Shown: positions 33,535-49,417 of the stretch, piece by piece | Layout of the letters: every line of letters begins with the position of its first letter | Position numbering within the stretch: the stretch's first letter is position 1 | DNA from: Dyella sp. M7H15-1 | GTDB taxonomy: Bacteria; Pseudomonadota; Gammaproteobacteria; Xanthomonadales; Rhodanobacteraceae | Direction: 5' to 3' | Length of the DNA: 64,000 nt | NCBI RefSeq assembly: GCF_004114615.1 | Contig: NZ_CP035300.1 | Coordinates: 310,001-374,000 of the forward strand | Notes under the pieces: model-generated | Seen by the model: the letters and a program-made list of their open reading frames with translations, nothing else | What the model was told of the DNA's origin: nothing | Database searches by the model: none | Program-made: the position numbers and the translations under genes

Positions 33535-35162
33535 GGGTGTGGGGGCGGTCATCGGCCGCGGCCACCACCTTGGCAACATCGCAGCTAGGCGTGGCGGTGG
33601 AGCGTGCCATGCAAGCCGCGGTCGCACCGGCACCATCGCCGCCGCGCCGGATGGCGCGCAACGTCGGCCGTGTGCCAGGTGCCGCGGGCGGCATGTTCAA
33701 AGGCAGCCAGGTTGACCCGAACGACCGTTGGGCCAGCATCGCCGTATCGCCCGATCAGTGGCTGACGTGGCGCCAGCCGGTGCTGGTGGCGCGCATGCGC
33801 GAGCAGTGGTCGAACAACGACCACGTGAAGCGCTATGTGGACATGTGCCGACAGAACATCGTCGGGCCACTGGGTATCCTGCTGCAGGCCAAAGCGAAGA
33901 AGCGGGGCGGGCAGTTGGACACGGAGTCCAACGACGCGATCGAGGCGTGGTGGGCACAGTGGGGGCGTACCGGGCATTGCGATGTCACCGGCACCTATTC
34001 CTGGCGCGAGATCCAAGACGTATGCGTGGCCACCTGCGTGCGCGATGGTGAATTTCTCGCGCGCAAGATTTACGGCAAGCACGCTGGGCCAATGGGTTTT
34101 TCCTTGCAACTGATCGACCCAGCGCGCTTGCCGATTCGGTATGAGGCGTTGAAGTGGGGCGACGAGGGCGGTTTTGTTCGCCAGGGCATTGAGTTCAACC
34201 GCTACGGGCGACCGGTGGCCTATCACTTTTCCTCGCTGGATGAGCGCGACGCGTACTACTACACCCTCAACGGCAAGGGTTATGTGCGCGTGCCGGCCGA
34301 AGAGGTGATTCACGTTTTCAAAAAGGAAATGGTGGGGCAGCGCCGCGGGTTGCCGTGGGCGGCGACATCGCTGTTTGGTCTGCACCACCTGCAGGGTTTT
34401 CAGGATGCCGCCGTGCAGAACGCACGCGCGTCCGCCGCCAAGATGGGCTTTTTCGAGTGGGACGCCGGCATGGGGCCGGATTGCGACGGTGACGACGAAG
34501 GCGAAATCTACGTCGATGCCGAACCGCTGTCGTTCCACGAACTGCCACCCGGTGCGCGGTTGAAGGATTGGAACCCGACGTATCCGTCCGGCGAATACGC
34601 CGTGTTCGCCAAGCAGGTGCTGCGCAGCATCGCCGCCGGCATGAATGTGTCGTATCACTCGCTGACGGGTGATCTGGAAAAGGTGAATTTCAGCAGCATT
34701 CGCAGCGGCACGCTGGAAGAGCGCGAGCGCTGGAAGCAAGACCAGCAGTTTGTGATCGAGCAATTGTGCACGCCGGTGTTCGAGGAAGCGCTGAAGCTGG
34801 CGCTGCTCGCTGGCCGCATCACCGTGCGCGGGCGTCCTTTATCGGCGGAGAAATACGCCGAATACCGCAAGGTGAGCTGGCAGGGCCGGCGCTGGGCGTG
34901 GGTTGACCCGCGCGCGGATGTGGAAAGCGCGCTGTCGTCGATTCGTGGCGGGCTGACGTCGGTCAGCCAGGTGATCCGCGAACAAGGCCGCGACCCGCAG
35001 GAGGTGTTCCGCGAGTTGGCGGAGGATCTGGTGGCGATGCGCGAGGCGGGATTGCCCGAAGCGTTCATTACGCAGGTGTTGATCGGCAAGGTGACGGGCG
35101 GCAACGCGCCACCGGCCAATGATGAAAACGATGAGGACAACGACCATGCCGATGCTGCGTGA
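33531..35162 (+). CDS. Portal protein, lambda family
   Basis: The GTG start overlaps the upstream stop. The 543-residue protein has the lambda portal signatures: WSNNDHVKRYVDMCRQNIVG, a central EVIHVFKKEMVGQRRGLPW and the GMNVSYHSLTGDLEKVNFSS segment with conserved SSIRSG. It forms the dodecameric ring through which DNA is packaged. The acidic tail (NDENDEDNDHADAA) overlaps the next gene by 17 bp. Confidence 0.93.
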   Translation: MRVWGRSSAAATTLATSQLGVAVERAMQAAVAPAPSPPRRMARNVGRVPGAAGGMFKGSQVDPNDRWASIAVSPDQWLTWRQPVLVARMREQWSNNDHVKRYVDMCRQNIVGPLGILLQAKAKKRGGQLDTESNDAIEAWWAQWGRTGHCDVTGTYSWREIQDVCVATCVRDGEFLARKIYGKHAGPMGFSLQLIDPARLPIRYEALKWGDEGGFVRQGIEFNRYGRPVAYHFSSLDERDAYYYTLNGKGYVRVPAEEVIHVFKKEMVGQRRGLPWAATSLFGLHHLQGFQDAAVQNARASAAKMGFFEWDAGMGPDCDGDDEGEIYVDAEPLSFHELPPGARLKDWNPTYPSGEYAVFAKQVLRSIAAGMNVSYHSLTGDLEKVNFSSIRSGTLEERERWKQDQQFVIEQLCTPVFEEALKLALLAGRITVRGRPLSAEKYAEYRKVSWQGRRWAWVDPRADVESALSSIRGGLTSVSQVIREQGRDPQEVFRELAEDLVAMREAGLPEAFITQVLIGKVTGGNAPPANDENDEDNDHADAA

Positions 35163-37161
35163 CAAGATCGCCACCCGCCTGCAGGAAATCCAACAAAAGG
35201 GCGGCTTGTGGCGCGAGGCGGAGGTGCTGGGCGTCGATGTGGAAGCCCGCACGGTTGAGCTGTCGTTTTCCAGTGAAGTAGAGGTGGAGCGCTGGTTCGG
35301 CATCGAGGTTCTGGGCCACGACCGGGGCGAATATGACTTTGCCCGCTTGAACGACAGCGCACCGATTCTGTGGAACCACGATTTGGACGACATGCGCGGG
35401 GTGGTGGAGCCGGGCAGCGCACGGGTGGACGTGGACCGCAAGGGCCGCCTGCTGGCGCGCTATGCCAAGGATGAAGCGGGCGAGCAGATGCTGCAGCGGA
35501 TCAACGACCGCATCGTGACCAAGGTCAGTGTGGGTTATCGCGTGAAGGGCATGAAGCTGGTGGAGGAACGCAACGATGTGGATGTGTATCGCATCAATGC
35601 CTGGGAACCGTTCGAGGTGTCGATGGTGAGCGTGCCGGCGGATATCACGGTAGGCGTGGGGCGGTCGCTGGTGGCACGCGGGGAGGGGCCATGGACGGAC
35701 CCGGGTTTGAGGAGCGAGGAAATGCCGCCAGAGGATGCTGCTCCGTCGAGCGGGAACACTGCGCCCGTTGCAGCCGATACCGGTACACGGGCGAGAAACA
35801 TCATGATTGAGAAAGTGACGCGGGATGCAAAGGGCAACCTGGTGCGTGCGCACGTTGACGAAAATGGCGCGATTGTGGAAGTGCTCGAAGTGATCGAGCC
35901 GGCCACGGATGAGGTACGCCAAGGTCAGCAGCGAGGGCAAGAGGCCGAGCGCACGCGCATGCGCTCGATTACTGAACTCGGGCGCCAGTACGGCCAGACC
36001 GAGCTGGCGCTGCAGGCCATTGCCGACGGCAACACGGCCGAAGAATTCCAGCGCATGCTGCTGCAGAAAGTGACCGAACGGTCCGGTCAGCCGCTGGGCG
36101 AGCAGATGCGCGATGCCGAGATCGGTTTGTCCAACCAGGAGGTTCGACAGTTCAGCTTTATCCGTGCGATTCGCGCGCTACTGCCGAACGCGACGGCGGA
36201 CGACCGGAAAGCGGCTGCGTTTGAGTTGGAGTGTTCGCGCGCTGCCGAACAGAAATACACCAAGCGCGCCAAGGGCATTCTGGTGCCCGCTGACGTGCTC
36301 AACCGTGCGTTCTCGACCACCAACCCGGACGCCGGCCCGGGCTCCAACATTGTGGCGCAGCAATTGCTGGCCAGCAGCTTTATCGAGCTGTTGCGTAACC
36401 GTGCGTGGGTGATGCGTCGTGCCACCACACTGGGCGGCCTGGTCGGCAATATCGACATCCCGCGACAGAAGGGCGCCGCGCAAGCGTATTGGGTCGGCGA
36501 GGGTGGTGCACCCAACTCGTCTGAGCCGGCACTCGATCAGGTGTCCTTCACCCCCAAGTCGCTGGCCGCCTTCACCGACATTACCCGCCGCCTGATGCTG
36601 CAATCGACACCGGATGCGGAGTTGATTGTGCGCGCCGATTTGCTACAGGTGATGGCGCTGCAAATCGACCGCGCTGCGATCTACGGCAACGGCAGCACCA
36701 ACCAGCCAAAGGGTGTGACGCTGCAAACCGGCATCAATGCGGTGCCCTTTGCCGCTGCCGGCAAGCCCACGTTCGAAGAGCTGGTGGAGATGGAAACCAA
36801 GATTGCCTTGGGGAATGCCGACGTGGAATCGATGGCGTATGCCTTCAACGCGGGTATTCGTGGTTACGCCAAGACCGCGCTTAAATTTCCGGGCACGGCG
36901 GCCAGTGGCACGATCTGGGAGCAGGGCAACACGGTCAATGGCTACGCCACCAGCGTGTCCAACCAGATTGAGCCGGGCGATGTGCTGTTTGGTAACTGGG
37001 CGGACCTGATCATTGCGATGTGGGGCGGCCTGGATCTGACCGTGGACCCGTACAGCCTGAGCACCAGCGGCGGTACGCGCATCGTGGTGTTCCAAGATGT
37101 GGACTTCAACATCCGCCACCCCGAAAGCTTCTGCTACGGCACGGCTGCGGCGGCGCACTGA
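35146..37161 (+). CDS. Prohead protease fused to HK97-fold major capsid protein
   Basis: The start is set by TGAGGA before ATG at 35146. Residues 1-200 form a U35-type HK97 prohead protease (catalytic His in ILWNHDLDD, Ser in TKVSVGYRV, and FEVSMVSVPAD). Residues 200-280 form the scaffold-like delta region with coiled coil. From about residue 290 to 671 an HK97-type capsid follows (FSFIRAIRALLPN, YWVGEGGAPNSSEP, YGNGSTNQPKG). One 671-residue gene thus supplies protease, scaffold and shell subunit, a known alternative to separate genes. Confidence 0.93.
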   Translation: MPMLRDKIATRLQEIQQKGGLWREAEVLGVDVEARTVELSFSSEVEVERWFGIEVLGHDRGEYDFARLNDSAPILWNHDLDDMRGVVEPGSARVDVDRKGRLLARYAKDEAGEQMLQRINDRIVTKVSVGYRVKGMKLVEERNDVDVYRINAWEPFEVSMVSVPADITVGVGRSLVARGEGPWTDPGLRSEEMPPEDAAPSSGNTAPVAADTGTRARNIMIEKVTRDAKGNLVRAHVDENGAIVEVLEVIEPATDEVRQGQQRGQEAERTRMRSITELGRQYGQTELALQAIADGNTAEEFQRMLLQKVTERSGQPLGEQMRDAEIGLSNQEVRQFSFIRAIRALLPNATADDRKAAAFELECSRAAEQKYTKRAKGILVPADVLNRAFSTTNPDAGPGSNIVAQQLLASSFIELLRNRAWVMRRATTLGGLVGNIDIPRQKGAAQAYWVGEGGAPNSSEPALDQVSFTPKSLAAFTDITRRLMLQSTPDAELIVRADLLQVMALQIDRAAIYGNGSTNQPKGVTLQTGINAVPFAAAGKPTFEELVEMETKIALGNADVESMAYAFNAGIRGYAKTALKFPGTAASGTIWEQGNTVNGYATSVSNQIEPGDVLFGNWADLIIAMWGGLDLTVDPYSLSTSGGTRIVVFQDVDFNIRHPESFCYGTAAAAH

Positions 37162-39439: not shown

Positions 39440-39733
39440 TCACGCTGCGGCCAGTTCGATTTTTACGCGGTAACCTAGCGCTTGCGCGGCCCGGCTCAAG
39501 GTTTCCACCGTGAGCCCGGTGTCATCTTCGTCCAGCAGGCGATCCAGTAGCGAACGGCTGGTGTGCATGCGCTCGGCCAGTGCCTTTTTGGTCATACCTC
39601 GCGCTTTCATGGCTTGGGCAATTTGCCAGGCAATGACGCGCTTGATGGCCACGGCGCTGCTCGCTTCGAGCATCCCTTCTTCTGCCAGGAATTCATCGAA
39701 GTCAGAGCCGATATGGGGGTTGTGCTTAGTCAT
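39440..39733 (-). CDS. XRE-family antitoxin of a HigBA-like pair
   Basis: The 97-residue protein has an XRE helix-turn-helix (RGMTKKALAERMHTSRSLLDRLLD, then LTVETLSRAAQALG). It follows the toxin gene on the minus strand within the plus-strand tail operon. A tandem duplication of the toxin-antitoxin junction separates the two genes. Confidence 0.82.
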   Translation of the reverse strand: MTKHNPHIGSDFDEFLAEEGMLEASSAVAIKRVIAWQIAQAMKARGMTKKALAERMHTSRSLLDRLLDEDDTGLTVETLSRAAQALGYRVKIELAAA

Positions 39734-39822
39734 CGTGCACCTCTTGCTTGCATTTCCACTATCGGTCCAAATTGAGCCGATAGGTACAGGTTGTGCTTAG
39801 TCATCATGCACCTCTTGCTTGC
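39719..39822. repeat. Tandem duplication of the toxin-antitoxin junction
   Basis: A 33-bp segment at 39719-39751 recurs at 39790-39822 with one mismatch (period 71 bp). One copy holds the antitoxin start ATGACTAAGCAC; the other holds the toxin stop within the same bases (GATGACTAA). The genes evidently overlapped before the duplication and now lie 63 bp apart. Confidence 0.7.
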
Positions 39823-40153
39823 GTTGCTGTGCCAGCTTCAGGTCTGCCTTGGGTGTCTTGTCTGACTTCTTAACAAAGCCGTGCAGTAGCACCATCGTGG
39901 CGCCCACGGTGGTGAATAGCACACGGGCGATGCCGTCAGAGATATGGCTGCGCACTTCCCACAACCCTGCCTCCATCTTGCGCACCAGCGGCATGCCCAG
40001 CGGCCAGCCGTACTGCACGGTTTTGATGTCCTCGCCGATCGCCTTGCGATCTTCGGCCCGCAGGCTCTTTAGCCAATCACGGACTGGCTCGTTGCCTTGG
40101 CCGGAGACGTAAAAGCGGACGGAGAGGGTTATGGATATGGGCAGGGTTGGCAT
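39797..40153 (-). CDS. HigB/RelE-type toxin (Gp49-like)
   Basis: The start is placed at MPTLPISIT; a longer frame is open but would run through the operator-like palindrome. The 118-residue protein has the Gp49-like HigB core (VRDWLKSLRAEDRKAIGEDI, GLWEVRSHISDGIARVLF, VLLHGFVKKSDKTP). Such toxins cleave mRNA on the ribosome. It is transcribed opposite to the tail genes and would stabilise the prophage or act in phage exclusion. Confidence 0.85.
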   Translation of the reverse strand: MPTLPISITLSVRFYVSGQGNEPVRDWLKSLRAEDRKAIGEDIKTVQYGWPLGMPLVRKMEAGLWEVRSHISDGIARVLFTTVGATMVLLHGFVKKSDKTPKADLKLAQQRKQEVHDD

Positions 40154-40161
40154 GGGTGCAG

Positions 40162-40179
40162 TGTACCTAAAAAAGTACA
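40162..40179. promoter_or_regulatory. Inverted repeat upstream of the toxin gene
   Basis: TGTAC and GTACA arms separated by 8 A/T-rich bases lie just upstream of the toxin start. Toxin-antitoxin complexes usually bind such a site to autoregulate the operon. Confidence 0.5.
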
Positions 40180-40263
40180 TTTGTCTAGCCCCCTCCACTC
40201 GCTTTTTAGGGCGCGGAAATATCGCCAGAGGCTGCCAGAGGGCGCCATTTCGATACTCCCCGC

Positions 40264-43902: not shown

Positions 43903-45108
43903 ATGGCGGTGGATCAGTTTCTGCACGGGGTCGAGGTGGTGGATGTCGATGATGGTGTGCGCACCATCTCGACCGCATCGAGCAGTGTTATCGGCATCGT
44001 AGGCACCGCGCCCTGGGCAGACCCGGCGGTGTTTCCGCTCAATACGCCGGTGCTGGTGGCCGGCAGCGAAGCCAAGCTGGCGGCACTGGTGGCGAACCCC
44101 GAAGCGGGTGCGTCGCGCGGCAGTCTGCCTTACCAATGCGCCAAGCTCTACGATCAGGCCAAGGCGGTGCTGGTGGTGGTGCGTGTGGCGGATGCCGGCG
44201 AATGGGACGATACCGTTCGGAATGTGGCCGGCGGTGCGGGGATGTTTGGCCAATTCAGCGGCGTGTATGCGCTGTTGCTGGCGCAGAGTGTGACAGGTGT
44301 GAAGCCGCGTATTCTGATTGCGCCTGGCTGGACGGCACCCGCTTTCGGCGTGCCGGGAATGCCGATGCTTAACGAGGTGGTTTCGGCGCTGCAGGTCGTG
44401 GCTGGCCGATTGCGTGCGGTGTATGTGCATGATGGCCCCAATACCACCGACGAGGATGCGCTCAAGCTGGCGCAGCTCGCAGCGCACCACCGCGGCTACA
44501 TGGTGGAGTCGGTGGGGCTCAACGGTCGCGATGGCGAGCCGGCATGGGGCAGCACGCTGGCGGCGGGTGTGATGGCAGCCACGGACAATAACCTGGGCTG
44601 GTGGCACTCGCCGTCGAACAAGATTGTTTCGGGTATCACGGAGATTTCGCGACCGGTGGCGTTTGCCATGGGGGATACGGCGTGCTCGGCGAATGTGCTC
44701 AATGCGGGCAATGTGACGTGCCTGATTCAGCAGGATGGTTTTCGCTTGTGGGGCAATCGGGTGACGGGCGCGCAAGCGGACCCGAAGTGGAAATACCTAT
44801 GTGTGGTGCGCACGGCGGACATTATCGCCGACAGTCTGCAGGCGGCCCATCTCTGGGCGGTGGATCGCGGCATTACCAAGAATTATGTGACGGACGTGCA
44901 GGAGGGCGTGAACGCGTTCCTGCGTCGCTTGAAATCCCTGGGTGCGATTGTCGGTGGCATGTGCTGGTACGACGCGGCGTTGAATACCCCCGAATCCATC
45001 GCGGATGGCAATTTCTACTGGGACTTTGATTTCACACCGACCTACCCGGGCGAACACCTGACCTTCCGCAGTCACCTGGTGAATAACTACCTGACGGAGA
45101 TTGTGTAA
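43903..45108 (+). CDS. Contractile tail sheath protein FI
   Basis: The 401-residue protein is the P2 FI homologue: TASSSVIGIVGTAPWADP, PKILIAPGWT-like PRILIAPGWTAPAFG, YMVESVGLNGRDGEPAWG and the C-terminal FTPTYPGEHLTFRSHLVNNY. It shows the phage to be contractile-tailed. Confidence 0.95.
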   Translation: MAVDQFLHGVEVVDVDDGVRTISTASSSVIGIVGTAPWADPAVFPLNTPVLVAGSEAKLAALVANPEAGASRGSLPYQCAKLYDQAKAVLVVVRVADAGEWDDTVRNVAGGAGMFGQFSGVYALLLAQSVTGVKPRILIAPGWTAPAFGVPGMPMLNEVVSALQVVAGRLRAVYVHDGPNTTDEDALKLAQLAAHHRGYMVESVGLNGRDGEPAWGSTLAAGVMAATDNNLGWWHSPSNKIVSGITEISRPVAFAMGDTACSANVLNAGNVTCLIQQDGFRLWGNRVTGAQADPKWKYLCVVRTADIIADSLQAAHLWAVDRGITKNYVTDVQEGVNAFLRRLKSLGAIVGGMCWYDAALNTPESIADGNFYWDFDFTPTYPGEHLTFRSHLVNNYLTEIV

Positions 45109-45617
45109 TGGGTGCTCCGCGCAGTGTGCTCAAGAATCTGAATCTGTTTGTGGATGGCCGTGGCTATGCCGGCCAGGTGGAAGATATCAACCTGCCCAAG
45201 CTCTCGTTGAAGACAGAGGAGTTCCGCGGCGGTGGTATGGATGCGCCGGTCGAGCTGACCATGGGCATGGAAAAGCTGGAGATGGATTTTTCCCTTATTT
45301 GCTACGACCGCGATCTGTTGATGCTGTTTGGCGTGGTGGAGGGCAAGCAGGTGCAATGCACGGTGCGTGGCTTTCTGGAATCGTTCGACGGCAGCACCAG
45401 CGCGGTGATGATCAATGTGCGCGGCAAGGTGAAGGAGATCGACCGCGGCACATGGAAGCCGGGCGACAAGGCGTCGCTGAAGATCAGCATGGCGCTGTCG
45501 TATTACAAGGAAGCGCACGATGCTGCGGTGATTAGCGAAGTGGATGTGGAAAACATGGTTTACAACAGCGGCGGCGTGGATCTGTTGCAGGCTGCGCGCC
45601 AGGCATTGGGGATGTGA
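45108..45617 (+). CDS. Tail tube protein FII
   Basis: The 169-residue protein matches P2 FII (VLKNLNLFVDGRGYAGQVED, MGMEKLEMDFSLICYD, FDGSTSAVMINVRGK, WKPGDKASLKISMAL). It starts in the stop of the sheath gene (TAATG). Confidence 0.95.
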   Translation: MGAPRSVLKNLNLFVDGRGYAGQVEDINLPKLSLKTEEFRGGGMDAPVELTMGMEKLEMDFSLICYDRDLLMLFGVVEGKQVQCTVRGFLESFDGSTSAVMINVRGKVKEIDRGTWKPGDKASLKISMALSYYKEAHDAAVISEVDVENMVYNSGGVDLLQAARQALGM

Positions 45618-45618
45618 C

Positions 45619-45921
45619 GTGAGTGACGATTATCAGAAACCGGATTACATCGAGGAAGTGGACGGCGGCGTGGTGATTACGCTGGCGGCGCCGGCCACGA
45701 TCAACGGGCAGAGCGTGCAAACGCTGTCGATGCGCGAGCCGTGCGGCCGTGACCTGAAGGCGGCGCAAAATGCCAAGGGCACGGATGCGGATAAGGAGTT
45801 TCGCCTATTCGCGAACTTGTTGGAGTGCACGCCGGCCGATGTGGAGGAACTGACGCTGCGCAATTTGCGCCGAGTGCAGGAGGCGTTCAAGTTTTTTCGC
45901 GGTAGCGATCAGTCTGAATGA
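45619..45921 (+). CDS. Tail assembly chaperone, short form (gpE)
   Basis: The GTG start is chosen because it lies one base after the FII stop codon. The 100-residue protein (VVITLAAPATINGQSVQTL, LTLRNLRRVQEAFKFF) is the gpE equivalent that binds the tape measure during assembly. It ends after a T6 run where ribosomes can change frame to make the longer product. Confidence 0.82.
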   Translation: MSDDYQKPDYIEEVDGGVVITLAAPATINGQSVQTLSMREPCGRDLKAAQNAKGTDADKEFRLFANLLECTPADVEELTLRNLRRVQEAFKFFRGSDQSE

Positions 45922-46039
45922 TCTGCGCCAGGGAGTGATTGCCCTGGCCTCTTATACCGGATGGGGGCGCGCCGAGATTATGGCGATGCCGCTTTCCGAA
46001 TTGCTCTGGTGGGTGGAAGGGTTGCCGCGCGATGGCTAG
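45619..46039 (+). CDS. Tail assembly chaperone, frameshifted long form (gpE-E')
   Basis: The E' part lies in another frame from about 45899 to the TAG at 46037-46039 and encodes 46 residues, AVAISLNDLRQGVIALASYT and further to a W-W-rich end. It has no good start of its own. The overlap contains AAG TTT TTT CGC. The E' frame is +1 (equivalently -2) relative to E: the -1 frame has a stop (TAG, 45903-45905) at once. P2 uses -1; Mu uses -2 for the same kind of gene. Confidence 0.75.
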
Positions 46040-48257
46040 CACGAAGCAATTTCATGCCAGCATAGTTCTTGGCGGCCTGGTTTCCGGGGCGCTGAAAAAT
46101 GCGTTTCGCACGACCGAAAGCGCGCTGGGCAAACTCGGTACCGAACTGAAGACGCTCAGCAACCGGCAGAAGTTGCTGGGCGATTCCATCCGCACGTTCG
46201 GCCGCATGGGCAAGGACGTGGAGAGTTTGCGCAGCAAGTATGCGCAGGTGACGGGCGAGGTGGATCGATTGGCCACCGCGCACAAGCGTTTGCAGGCGGC
46301 CCAGAAGACTGCCACGGCCATGCGCGATGCGGGGCGTGGTCTTCAACATGCGGGCTTTTCGGCGGGCGTGGCTGGCGCTGCGGGGGCGGTACCGTTGGGT
46401 TTGATGCTGCGCGAATCCAACCAATACCAGACCGAGATGGCGCGCGTGCGTGCGTTGGGCTTTGGCGAGCAGGCGGGGCGTGATGCGCAGGCGTTTTCGT
46501 CGTCGTTGAAAACCGCCGGCACCAGTAAGTTGGAGAACCTGACGCTGATGCGCGATGCGATGAGCGTGTTTGGCGATGAGCACCATGCGCAGATGGTGTT
46601 GCCGTTGTTGGCCAAGATGAAGTATGGCAATGAAGCGGTGTTCGGCGCGGAGCAGGGGGCTCAGAACGAACAGGCGTTTATGAATATGCTCAAGACCATC
46701 GAGCTGCGCGGCGGTCTGGCCAGCCCGGTTGCGTTCGCCAAGCAGGCAAATATGGTGCAGCAGGTGATCGCTGCCACGGGTGGCCGGGTGAGCGCGGAGG
46801 ACTGGATCGAGGTGATCAAGCGCGGCGGCTTGGCGGCCAAGGGGATGGACGATAAATCTTTCTATTACGGGCTGGAGCCGCTGGTGCAGGAGCTGGGCGG
46901 CTCGGCGGTGGGTACGGCACTCAATTCCGCGTACCAGAATTTGTATCAGGGGCGCACATCGGTGCGTGCCGCGCGCAACCTGGAAGACCTGGGGCTGATT
47001 GGCGATAAGAGCAAGGTGGTGGCGGACAAGGCGGGCCAGGTGAAGTTTCTGGACCCGGGGGCGCTGAAGGGTGCGGACTTGTTCCGCACGTCGCAATACG
47101 AGTGGATGAAACAGGTGTTGCTGCCGACGCTGGCTGAGAAGGGCATTACGTCCAAGGATCAGGTGCTGGATGCGATTGGCTCGATTTTCACCAACCGCAA
47201 GGCCGCCGATTTGTTCGGGACGATGTATCTGCAGCAAGCGAATATCGACAAGAGCGCGCGTGTTAACGCGGAGGCGTATGACATCGACCAATTGAGCAAG
47301 GAGGGCGCGCAGACGGCCGAGGGCAAGCAGCTGATGGCCATGAGCAAGCTGCATGATGCCTGGCTGGTGACGGGTGAAAAGGTGCTGCCGTTGTGGACGC
47401 GGGCGATCGAGCTGGCGTCGGGTGTGCTGGATCGGTTCAACGTGTTTGCGCAGAATAATCCGGGGACGGTGAAGGCGATTGCGGTGGGGCTAGGGCTGGT
47501 GTCGGGTGCGTTGCTTACGCTGTCGCCGGTGTTGCTTACGCTGGGTGCTGGCCTGCGCGTGTTTGCGTTCTTTCATGTGTCGGTGGTGCGGTTTTTGCCG
47601 GTGTTGCGGTTGTTGGGTAGTGCCCTGGGTTTGGTTGGGCAGGGTGTGCTGTGGTTGGGCCGCGCGTTCTTGATGAACCCGATAGGGCTCGCGATCACGG
47701 CTATCGCGCTGGGTGCGTATTTGATCATTAAGCATTGGGATGCAATCAGCGCGTTTATGGCGACGCTATGGCAGGGCATCACGCAGATTTTTCGTGGTGC
47801 GTGGGACGTAATTGCCGGCATCTTCACCTTGGATGGTGCGCGCATCAGCCAGGGCTGGAACACGATGTGCGACGGCTTCAAAAGCTACTTGTCGCACGTG
47901 TGGGAAGGCATCAAGGGCGTGTTTCAGGCGGGCATCGACTGGGTGGTGAGCAAGGTCGATTGGGTGTCGACCAAGTACCGAAGCTTCAAAAAGTTTCTGG
48001 GCATGGATTCGGGGCCAGCCGATATCAAGTGGTACACGGGAGCGCCGGGCGAGGAGGCGCCACGGTCTGGTGCCCCTGCTTTGGCACCCGTGGCGATGCG
48101 TGGCCGAGGTGCGATGACGCAGACCAATACGTTCAACATCGTGCAGCAGCCGGGTGAATCAAGCGATGCGTTGGCGCGCCGTGTGGCGGCGTTGACGAAG
48201 ATGGAGCACCAGCAGTATCAGCGCACGGGCATGATGGATCCGGCGTGGGATGGGTGA
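46032..48257 (+). CDS. Tail tape measure protein T
   Basis: The start (MASTKQFHASIVLGG) overlaps the E' stop by 8 bp. The 741-residue protein has an N-terminal coiled coil (about residues 30-90), a central region AGRGLQHAGFSAGVAGAAG, and a hydrophobic membrane-like block (about residues 475-580) with a channel-like LNPIGLAITAI-type segment. Length sets the tail length. Confidence 0.92.
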   Translation: MASTKQFHASIVLGGLVSGALKNAFRTTESALGKLGTELKTLSNRQKLLGDSIRTFGRMGKDVESLRSKYAQVTGEVDRLATAHKRLQAAQKTATAMRDAGRGLQHAGFSAGVAGAAGAVPLGLMLRESNQYQTEMARVRALGFGEQAGRDAQAFSSSLKTAGTSKLENLTLMRDAMSVFGDEHHAQMVLPLLAKMKYGNEAVFGAEQGAQNEQAFMNMLKTIELRGGLASPVAFAKQANMVQQVIAATGGRVSAEDWIEVIKRGGLAAKGMDDKSFYYGLEPLVQELGGSAVGTALNSAYQNLYQGRTSVRAARNLEDLGLIGDKSKVVADKAGQVKFLDPGALKGADLFRTSQYEWMKQVLLPTLAEKGITSKDQVLDAIGSIFTNRKAADLFGTMYLQQANIDKSARVNAEAYDIDQLSKEGAQTAEGKQLMAMSKLHDAWLVTGEKVLPLWTRAIELASGVLDRFNVFAQNNPGTVKAIAVGLGLVSGALLTLSPVLLTLGAGLRVFAFFHVSVVRFLPVLRLLGSALGLVGQGVLWLGRAFLMNPIGLAITAIALGAYLIIKHWDAISAFMATLWQGITQIFRGAWDVIAGIFTLDGARISQGWNTMCDGFKSYLSHVWEGIKGVFQAGIDWVVSKVDWVSTKYRSFKKFLGMDSGPADIKWYTGAPGEEAPRSGAPALAPVAMRGRGAMTQTNTFNIVQQPGESSDALARRVAALTKMEHQQYQRTGMMDPAWDG

Positions 48258-48755: not shown

Positions 48756-49061
48756 CTAGCCGTTGGATGCGCGCGGAATCACACGGCGCAGGATGTCGTC
48801 GTGGGTGGGCAGTGTTTTGAGATCGTAGGCGGCTTGCAGCGCCAGCCAGCTTGCGGCATCGCCGCCGAAGTAACGGGCGAGCCGCTCGGCTGTGTCGGCG
48901 GTGACGGCGCGGCGTTCGTTGACGATTTCATGTATGCGGGTGGCGGGCACACCAAGCGCCAGAGAAAGGGCGTTGACGCTCATGCTGATGGGGGCCAGGA
49001 AATCTTCCCGAAGGATCTCGCCGGGGTGCACGGGGCGCATGCGGTTGATGGGCTTGGTCAT
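48756..49061 (-). CDS. higA: HigA antitoxin
   Basis: The 101-residue XRE protein has the HigA start MRPVHPGEILREDFL, HTH region SVNALSLALGVPATRIHEIV and the AERLARYFGGDAASWL signature. It follows higB on the minus strand with a 12-bp gap, inside the plus-strand tail operon between genes U and X. Confidence 0.93.
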   Translation of the reverse strand: MTKPINRMRPVHPGEILREDFLAPISMSVNALSLALGVPATRIHEIVNERRAVTADTAERLARYFGGDAASWLALQAAYDLKTLPTHDDILRRVIPRASNG

Positions 49062-49073
49062 GGTGTTGCCTGC

Positions 49074-49355
49074 TTAGTGGTAGTCGACAATTTCAACGTG
49101 GGTAGGGCCTGCCTGGATCCACACGAAGCACAGCCGAAATTGGCCGTTGATGCGGATGCTGTGCTGGCCTTTGCGATCACCTTTGAGGGCTTCGAGCATG
49201 TTGCCGGGCGGGGAGCGCAGGAAGTCCAGTGTCAAGGCGGCGTCCAGTTGGCTGAGCTTGCGGATAGCAGCGTCTTCGAACGCCCGAAATTTGCGCGGGT
49301 GGCCGCCTTCGAACAGGGCTTGCGTGTGTTTGCAGGCGAAGGATTGGATAGCCAT
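49074..49355 (-). CDS. higB: HigB toxin
   Basis: The start at MAIQSFACKHTQALFEGG gives 93 residues, matching the family length; a longer frame is open. It has the HigB core (RKFRAFEDAAIRKLSQLDAA, PPGNMLEALKGDRKGQHSIR, VEIVDYH). It is a ribosome-dependent mRNA endonuclease. Second toxin-antitoxin pair within the tail genes. Confidence 0.92.
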   Translation of the reverse strand: MAIQSFACKHTQALFEGGHPRKFRAFEDAAIRKLSQLDAALTLDFLRSPPGNMLEALKGDRKGQHSIRINGQFRLCFVWIQAGPTHVEIVDYH

Positions 49356-49365
49356 GTTGCGCATG

Positions 49366-49386
49366 GTATTGCGTGTTGCGTAATAC
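49366..49386. promoter_or_regulatory. Possible HigBA operator
   Basis: Arms GTATT and AATAC, 11 bases apart, lie 10 bp upstream of the higB start codon. Autoregulation by HigA through such a repeat is usual, but the arms are short. Confidence 0.35.
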
Positions 49387-49417
49387 GTCAAGCGGATAAC
49401 GTGTGCGGAGGGGCGCT

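Follow-up and report, generated by a model that had tools for sequence, protein, structure and literature searches.

The E/E′ Junction of a P2-Like Prophage in Dyella

The window analyzed here comprises 64,000 nucleotides (nt) of Dyella sp. M7H15-1 (contig NZ_CP035300.1, positions 310,001 to 374,000 of the forward strand; all coordinates below are those of the window) and contains a P2-like contractile-tail prophage. This study concerns its tail assembly chaperone gene E and the extension E′, which are read in different frames. Gene E (45619..45921, plus strand) is the zero-frame gene; it starts with GTG at 45619, ends with TGA at 45919-45921 and encodes 100 amino acids (aa) assigned to PF10109 (Phage_TAC_7, E=1.5e-17) and phrog_166. 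It is located between the tail tube gene FII (45108..45617, plus strand; PF04985, E=8.3e-54) and the tape measure gene T (46032..48257, plus strand; phrog_28, E=6.4e-58), the position and family being those of a P2-like chaperone. The E′ extension (45899..46039, plus strand), delimited by three-frame translation and homology, lies in a frame that is +1, or equivalently -2, relative to E. It is open from upstream of 45899, reads GCG GTA GCG... from that position and, after 46 aa, ends with the TAG at 46037-46039, where the ATG of the tape measure gene overlaps its end by 8 nt. It encodes AVAISLNDLRQGVIALASYTGWGRAEIMAMPLSELLWWVEGLPRDG. In tblastn comparisons this product is 45-60% identical over most of its length to the E′ of Persinger, FoX/Murka, Mano, Mica, Alexa and other phages, in which E′ always follows E and precedes the tape measure gene. 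By this homology, the E′ of the window is a genuine, conserved E′ extension.

The junction sequence is GAG GCG TTC AAG TTT TTT CGC GGT AGC, in which the codons AAG TTT TTT CGC occupy 45889-45900. The run of six U (UUU UUU, hereafter U6) that forms the putative slip site is found at 45892..45897 (plus strand), and the UUU_CGC proposed for a +1 slip in the ribosomal P site, with CGC in the A site, at 45895..45900 (plus strand). The -1 frame reads TTT TCG CGG TAG and is closed by the TAG at 45901-45903, which is the Phe-x-x-stop position typical of relatives that use a -1 shift. With the -1 frame stopped and no canonical heptamer present, the window departs from the P2-like pattern of a -1 shift at an X_XXY_YYZ-like site. 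Inspection of the E′ frame near the junction revealed neither a start codon nor a ribosome-binding site. A 7-bp GC hairpin about 30 nt downstream was considered as a stimulator and rejected as too distant. The first-pass annotation of this stretch had placed E′ in a net +1/-2 frame, with the -1 frame stopped at 45903 and slippage at AAG TTT TTT CGC; three-frame translation and the homology of E′ bear this out, and the coordinates given and the site on the run of six T (T6) are correct. A separate start for E′, which that annotation had named as a possible refutation, does not exist near the junction.

Survey of E/E′ Junctions in Related Tails

Collections of phages, plasmids, viral contigs and genomes supplied relatives of the E, E′, tube and tape proteins, and the offset from E to E′ was set by profile searches in all frames; the E proteins of P2 and Mu, too distant for the E profile, were taken from their records. 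The main table contains 180 loci, of which 63 are -1, 112 are +1 and 5 lack an E′ hit. The 112 include six copies of the locus in the window itself; without these, 106 remain. Since locus counts are inflated by near-copies, distinct 120-nt contexts are the preferable unit; after collapsing identical ones there are 48 for -1 and 77 for +1, one of the latter being the window (hence 76).

The nearest relatives of the window are all -1 (the 48 distinct contexts plus three further loci). They use NNU_UUU, most commonly as G_GGU_UUU (14) or A_AAU_UUU (6). By automatic count, E stops two codons past the slip Phe in 39 of these 48 contexts, a figure that rises to 41 once L214 and L050 (TTT TTC GAC stop) are read likewise; the three extra loci, found via the tape measure protein (L227-L229), fit the same Phe-x-x-stop pattern. 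The slip Phe is separated from a conserved Trp of E′ by 21 residues in 36 of 44 -1 relatives, or in 39 if the three in which Phe is doubled are included. UUU_CGY appears in only one of the 48 -1 contexts (L059), and the UUU_CGC of the window is therefore not expected by chance. At the level of sequence, the net +1/-2 frame of the window is real, and in the window's own branch of the family it is unusual. The first-pass annotation had called the frame unusual, and this holds for a branch in which the nearest kin are -1, but the frame is not unique, since 106 related loci share it.

Viral scans with the E, E′, tube and tape proteins, together with 920 genomes, yielded no kin of the window above 53% in E, and a scan of genome contigs with E returned no relative of the window. 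An IMG/VR copy (L002) is identical to the window over 3,300 bp; it is probably the same assembly and hence provides no independent confirmation of T6.

Other E homologs carry T runs near their end, namely those of Wolbachia phage WO (L029, GAT TTT TTT TCA), L051 (GTT TTT TTT TCC) and L037 (TCT TTT TCG). All three have an E′-like reading in the -1 frame that is not scored by the E′ profile, and the longer T runs may serve as shift sites here. Two genus-mates of the window (L019 and L020, from G246 and G309) possess a different P2-type tail, with an E that resembles P2 E and GGT TTT TTG, so two tail lineages circulate in the genus.

A +1 Clade with an Invariant UUU_CGY Core

The 106 remaining +1 loci (76 distinct contexts) form a clade with the same net frame as the window and an invariant UUU_CGY: 73 contexts have UAU_UUU_CGY and 3 have UAC_UUU_CGC, with no exception. 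Among its members are Pseudomonas lundensis pPL-38ph, Pseudomonas HN2 (pHN2), the Pseudomonas aeruginosa phage OQ658366 and G236, which belongs to the window's own family (loci L031, L032, L038-L046 and L063-L155). The plasmid records L031 and L032 annotate E only, the E′ extension being absent from the annotation. Codon usage was sampled in 26 representatives that differ by more than 10% at the DNA level. All 26 encode the slip Phe as TTT, against about equal use of TTT and TTC elsewhere (63:47 within E itself, 148:140 further downstream). For the Tyr at -3, 24 of the 26 have TAT, the reverse of the usual preference, and another invariant Tyr at -24, seven codons upstream, is TAC in 22 of 26. 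Because the preceding UAU or UAC lacks the base pairs for a -2 move, the clade sites are interpreted as +1 slips of tRNA-Phe from UUU to UUC and, judging from these codons, would work simply only in this way. A conserved Shine-Dalgarno (SD) element was also considered for the clade and rejected: locally strong anti-SD pairing at a spacing like that of RF2 occurs in many members, is absent from L064 and is matched elsewhere in E.

This core has precedents outside phage tails. In influenza PA-X (UCC_UUU_CGU), the +1 site and its direction have been shown by mass spectrometry, and UUU_C followed by CGN has been predicted as a general +1 class (PMC3498833). UUU_CGN has also been proposed as the +1 site of plant amalgaviruses (PMC5052127). 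No description of a phage-tail UUU_CGY site was found in the open-access literature. In the window, UUU_CGC stands where the E/E′ overlap ends, with a net +1 offset, which places a UUU_CGN motif of the PA-X type at the proposed shift point.

Slippage at UUU_CGC and Its Alternatives

We infer, with a probability of roughly 0.5, that the window shifts by +1 slippage at UUU_CGC. E/E′ would then be a tail assembly chaperone of two lengths. Most ribosomes would produce E (100 aa), and in a minority the tRNA-Phe on the second UUU (45895-45897), with CGC in the A site, would slip +1 to UUC. These ribosomes would read on in the E′ frame to give a predicted fusion of 139 aa, with the junction EAFKFF-AVAISL (predicted peptide ...FKFFAVAISLNDLR). 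The role of the extension would parallel that of gpGT in lambda, namely to connect the tube protein with the tape-measure/chaperone complex. The UUU_CGC core, the better pairing on UUC and the related +1 clade all point in this direction. As to the wider proposal, that a bacterial sense-codon UUU_CGY +1 class exists, is fixed in a chaperone clade and has arisen again from a -1 ancestor in this prophage, the odds are about even.

Several observations weigh against +1 slippage in the window. An SD-like AGGAGG (45878..45883, plus strand) precedes the second UUU by 11 nt, a spacing that is wrong for pushing +1 and better suited to a backward shift. At dnaX-type sites, an SD spacing like this one favours backward shifts. 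No SD-like element at +1 spacing is present in the window, the anti-SD duplex energy beside the slip codon being about zero, and no downstream stimulatory structure was detected, the fold of 45901-45980 being no better than shuffled (z -0.24). The U6 run permits -2 re-pairing (UUU to UUU) as well, and a +1/-2 junction of the window type has been seen in one genome only. In the E tree, which has 91 columns, many open forks and key branches supported by one measure in a quick search, the window groups with L209, a -1 sequence (53% identity, SH-aLRT 95), and the +1 clade stands apart from it (SH-aLRT 99), a topology that does not recover common descent with the clade. Frame-state changes on this tree number two with the window and one without it. 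The window would therefore have reached its +1 frame independently. As to how the frame may have switched, 5 nt more separate the slip codon from the conserved part of E′ than in the -1 consensus, an excess that alone suffices to turn a net -1 into +1/-2.

Slippage by -2 on U6, as in phage Mu, would produce the same net frame. In this case, the tRNA-Phe on the second UUU would move back two bases, the next codon being UUC, and the fusion would have 140 aa with KFFF-AVA at its junction (predicted peptide ...FKFFFAVAISLNDLR). Mu is a natural tail example (PMC3498833), U6 offers the perfect UUU-to-UUU re-pairing of a Mu-type slip site, the distance of AGGAGG suits a backward movement, and the junction of the sister locus L209 (AAG CTT TTT ACG GCC TGA) is a -1 site on C-U5. 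The explanation is nonetheless unlikely. Shifts of -2 are rare, the window site has no downstream structure, a -1 outcome on U6 would usually prevail and end immediately at the TAG at 45901, and the related +1 clade has this net frame at sites that do not allow -2 slippage. The first-pass annotation, which allowed either direction, was right in that both are possible on U6, but the two are not tied, +1 being favoured through the 106-locus clade and the known UUU_CGN motif; its contrast between P2 (-1) and Mu (-2) is in agreement with the records (PMC5009743, PMC3498833).

A doubtful, though slightly more probable, alternative is a true or ancestral -1 site from which a single base disappeared at the run through sequencing error or recent mutation, E-E′ being reduced or lost in this strain. 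One added T gives TTT TCG CGG TAG, that is Phe-Ser-Arg-stop, the usual -1 ending found in most -1 contexts and in L227-L229; the nearest kin are all -1, and the L002 copy is of no help if it comes from the same assembly. Yet the restored junction would have 23 residues to the Trp instead of the usual 21, so that an error alone yields no canonical site; G TTT TTT does not qualify as a canonical -1 heptamer, and the UUU_CGC would have to be a coincidence. Across 400 kb of the genome, homopolymers become rarer with length at a normal rate (7:6 = 23:82 and 6:5 = 82:341) and match those of a genus-mate, with no sign of truncation in that sample; a comparison of gene integrity with a genus-mate had too few genes in common (8 in the 400 kb sampled) to be informative. 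Neither account of the origin of the frame, the gain of 5 nt or the loss of a base at the run, is clean. An indel in the T run, which the first-pass annotation had listed as a refutation, is therefore graver than was assumed, because the extra base recreates a -1 junction, but spacing and homopolymer statistics oppose a simple error. Very improbable is the remaining proposal, namely that RNA polymerase slippage on T6 generates mRNAs in which E and E′ are fused, or that E′ is translated separately. The T run is there, preceded by a weak terminator-like stem (at chance level), but transcript slippage is generally associated with longer runs, Tn with n > 8 (PMC3711429), and the relatives, with U4-U5 or UAU_UUU_C, have no long runs; separate translation is opposed by the lack of a start codon and ribosome-binding site noted above.

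Comparison with Known Systems

The gene order FI-FII-E/E′-T, the 8-nt overlap of E′ and T and an E protein in PF10109 are shared with gpE/E+E′ of P2 (Peduovirus), and the E′ of the FoX/Murka, Mano and Mica type has the 45-60% identity mentioned above. All these systems differ from the window in being -1 (GGT TTT TTG in P2, mostly G_GGU_UUU and A_AAU_UUU in the others), mostly with Phe-x-x-stop. The +1 clade (pPL-38ph, pHN2, OQ658366, G236) has the net frame and core of the window; however, it is a well-supported clade of its own, its slip Phe is two residues closer to the QEA/QAG block, its E-site codon is UAU or UAC where the window has UUU, and some members have a weak SD-like stretch before UAU. 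Gp41 of phage Mu has the same net frame, function and broad family (E, 41 or 14), but its slip sequence is another one, its shift is a programmed -2 and there is no close sequence kinship. Influenza A PA-X and the plant amalgaviruses share the UUU_CGN core and the P-site slip from UUU to UUC, in eukaryotic ribosomes and unrelated genes. The CUU_UGA_C site of bacterial prfB (RF2) is similar in its P-site +1 tRNA slip toward a U-rich overlap, while the window has the sense codon CGC and lacks a close SD.

Prophage Context

In addition to E/E′, the prophage encodes terminase, portal, capsid, head-tail attachment, spike, gp25, J, I and fibre proteins, the tail sheath FI (43903..45108, plus strand; PF17482/PF04984), tube, tape measure, U, X and D. 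All head and tail genes checked, other than E/E′, are full length. The prohead protease (Peptidase_S78) and HK97-type capsid form a single 680-aa reading frame (35119-37161), which adjoins a lambda-family portal and a gpA terminase. Two toxin-antitoxin pairs lie on the minus strand, antisense within the tail operon: one at 39440-40198 between the spike gene and gp25 (HTH antitoxin and Gp49/HigB-type toxin), the other at 48756-49391 between U and X (HTH and HigB-like toxin). In Wolbachia phage WO (L029), a RelBE pair likewise sits between tube and E.

Significance

Tail chaperone shifts of -1, -2 and +1 are already known, so the finding in the window is not categorically new; +1 cases are few in the literature reviewed, among which HSTV-2 has been rated very likely +1 (PMC5009743). 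The more interesting part, on comparative evidence, would be the existence in phage tails of a +1 class with a conserved UUU_CGY. The +1 clade offers a large set of natural data on a bacterial sense-codon +1 signal, and it bears on the question of where else UUU_CGN-like sites serve, which was left by the influenza work (PMC3498833). For its part, the window would be a natural example of a tail gene switching the direction of its shift with both proteins retained.
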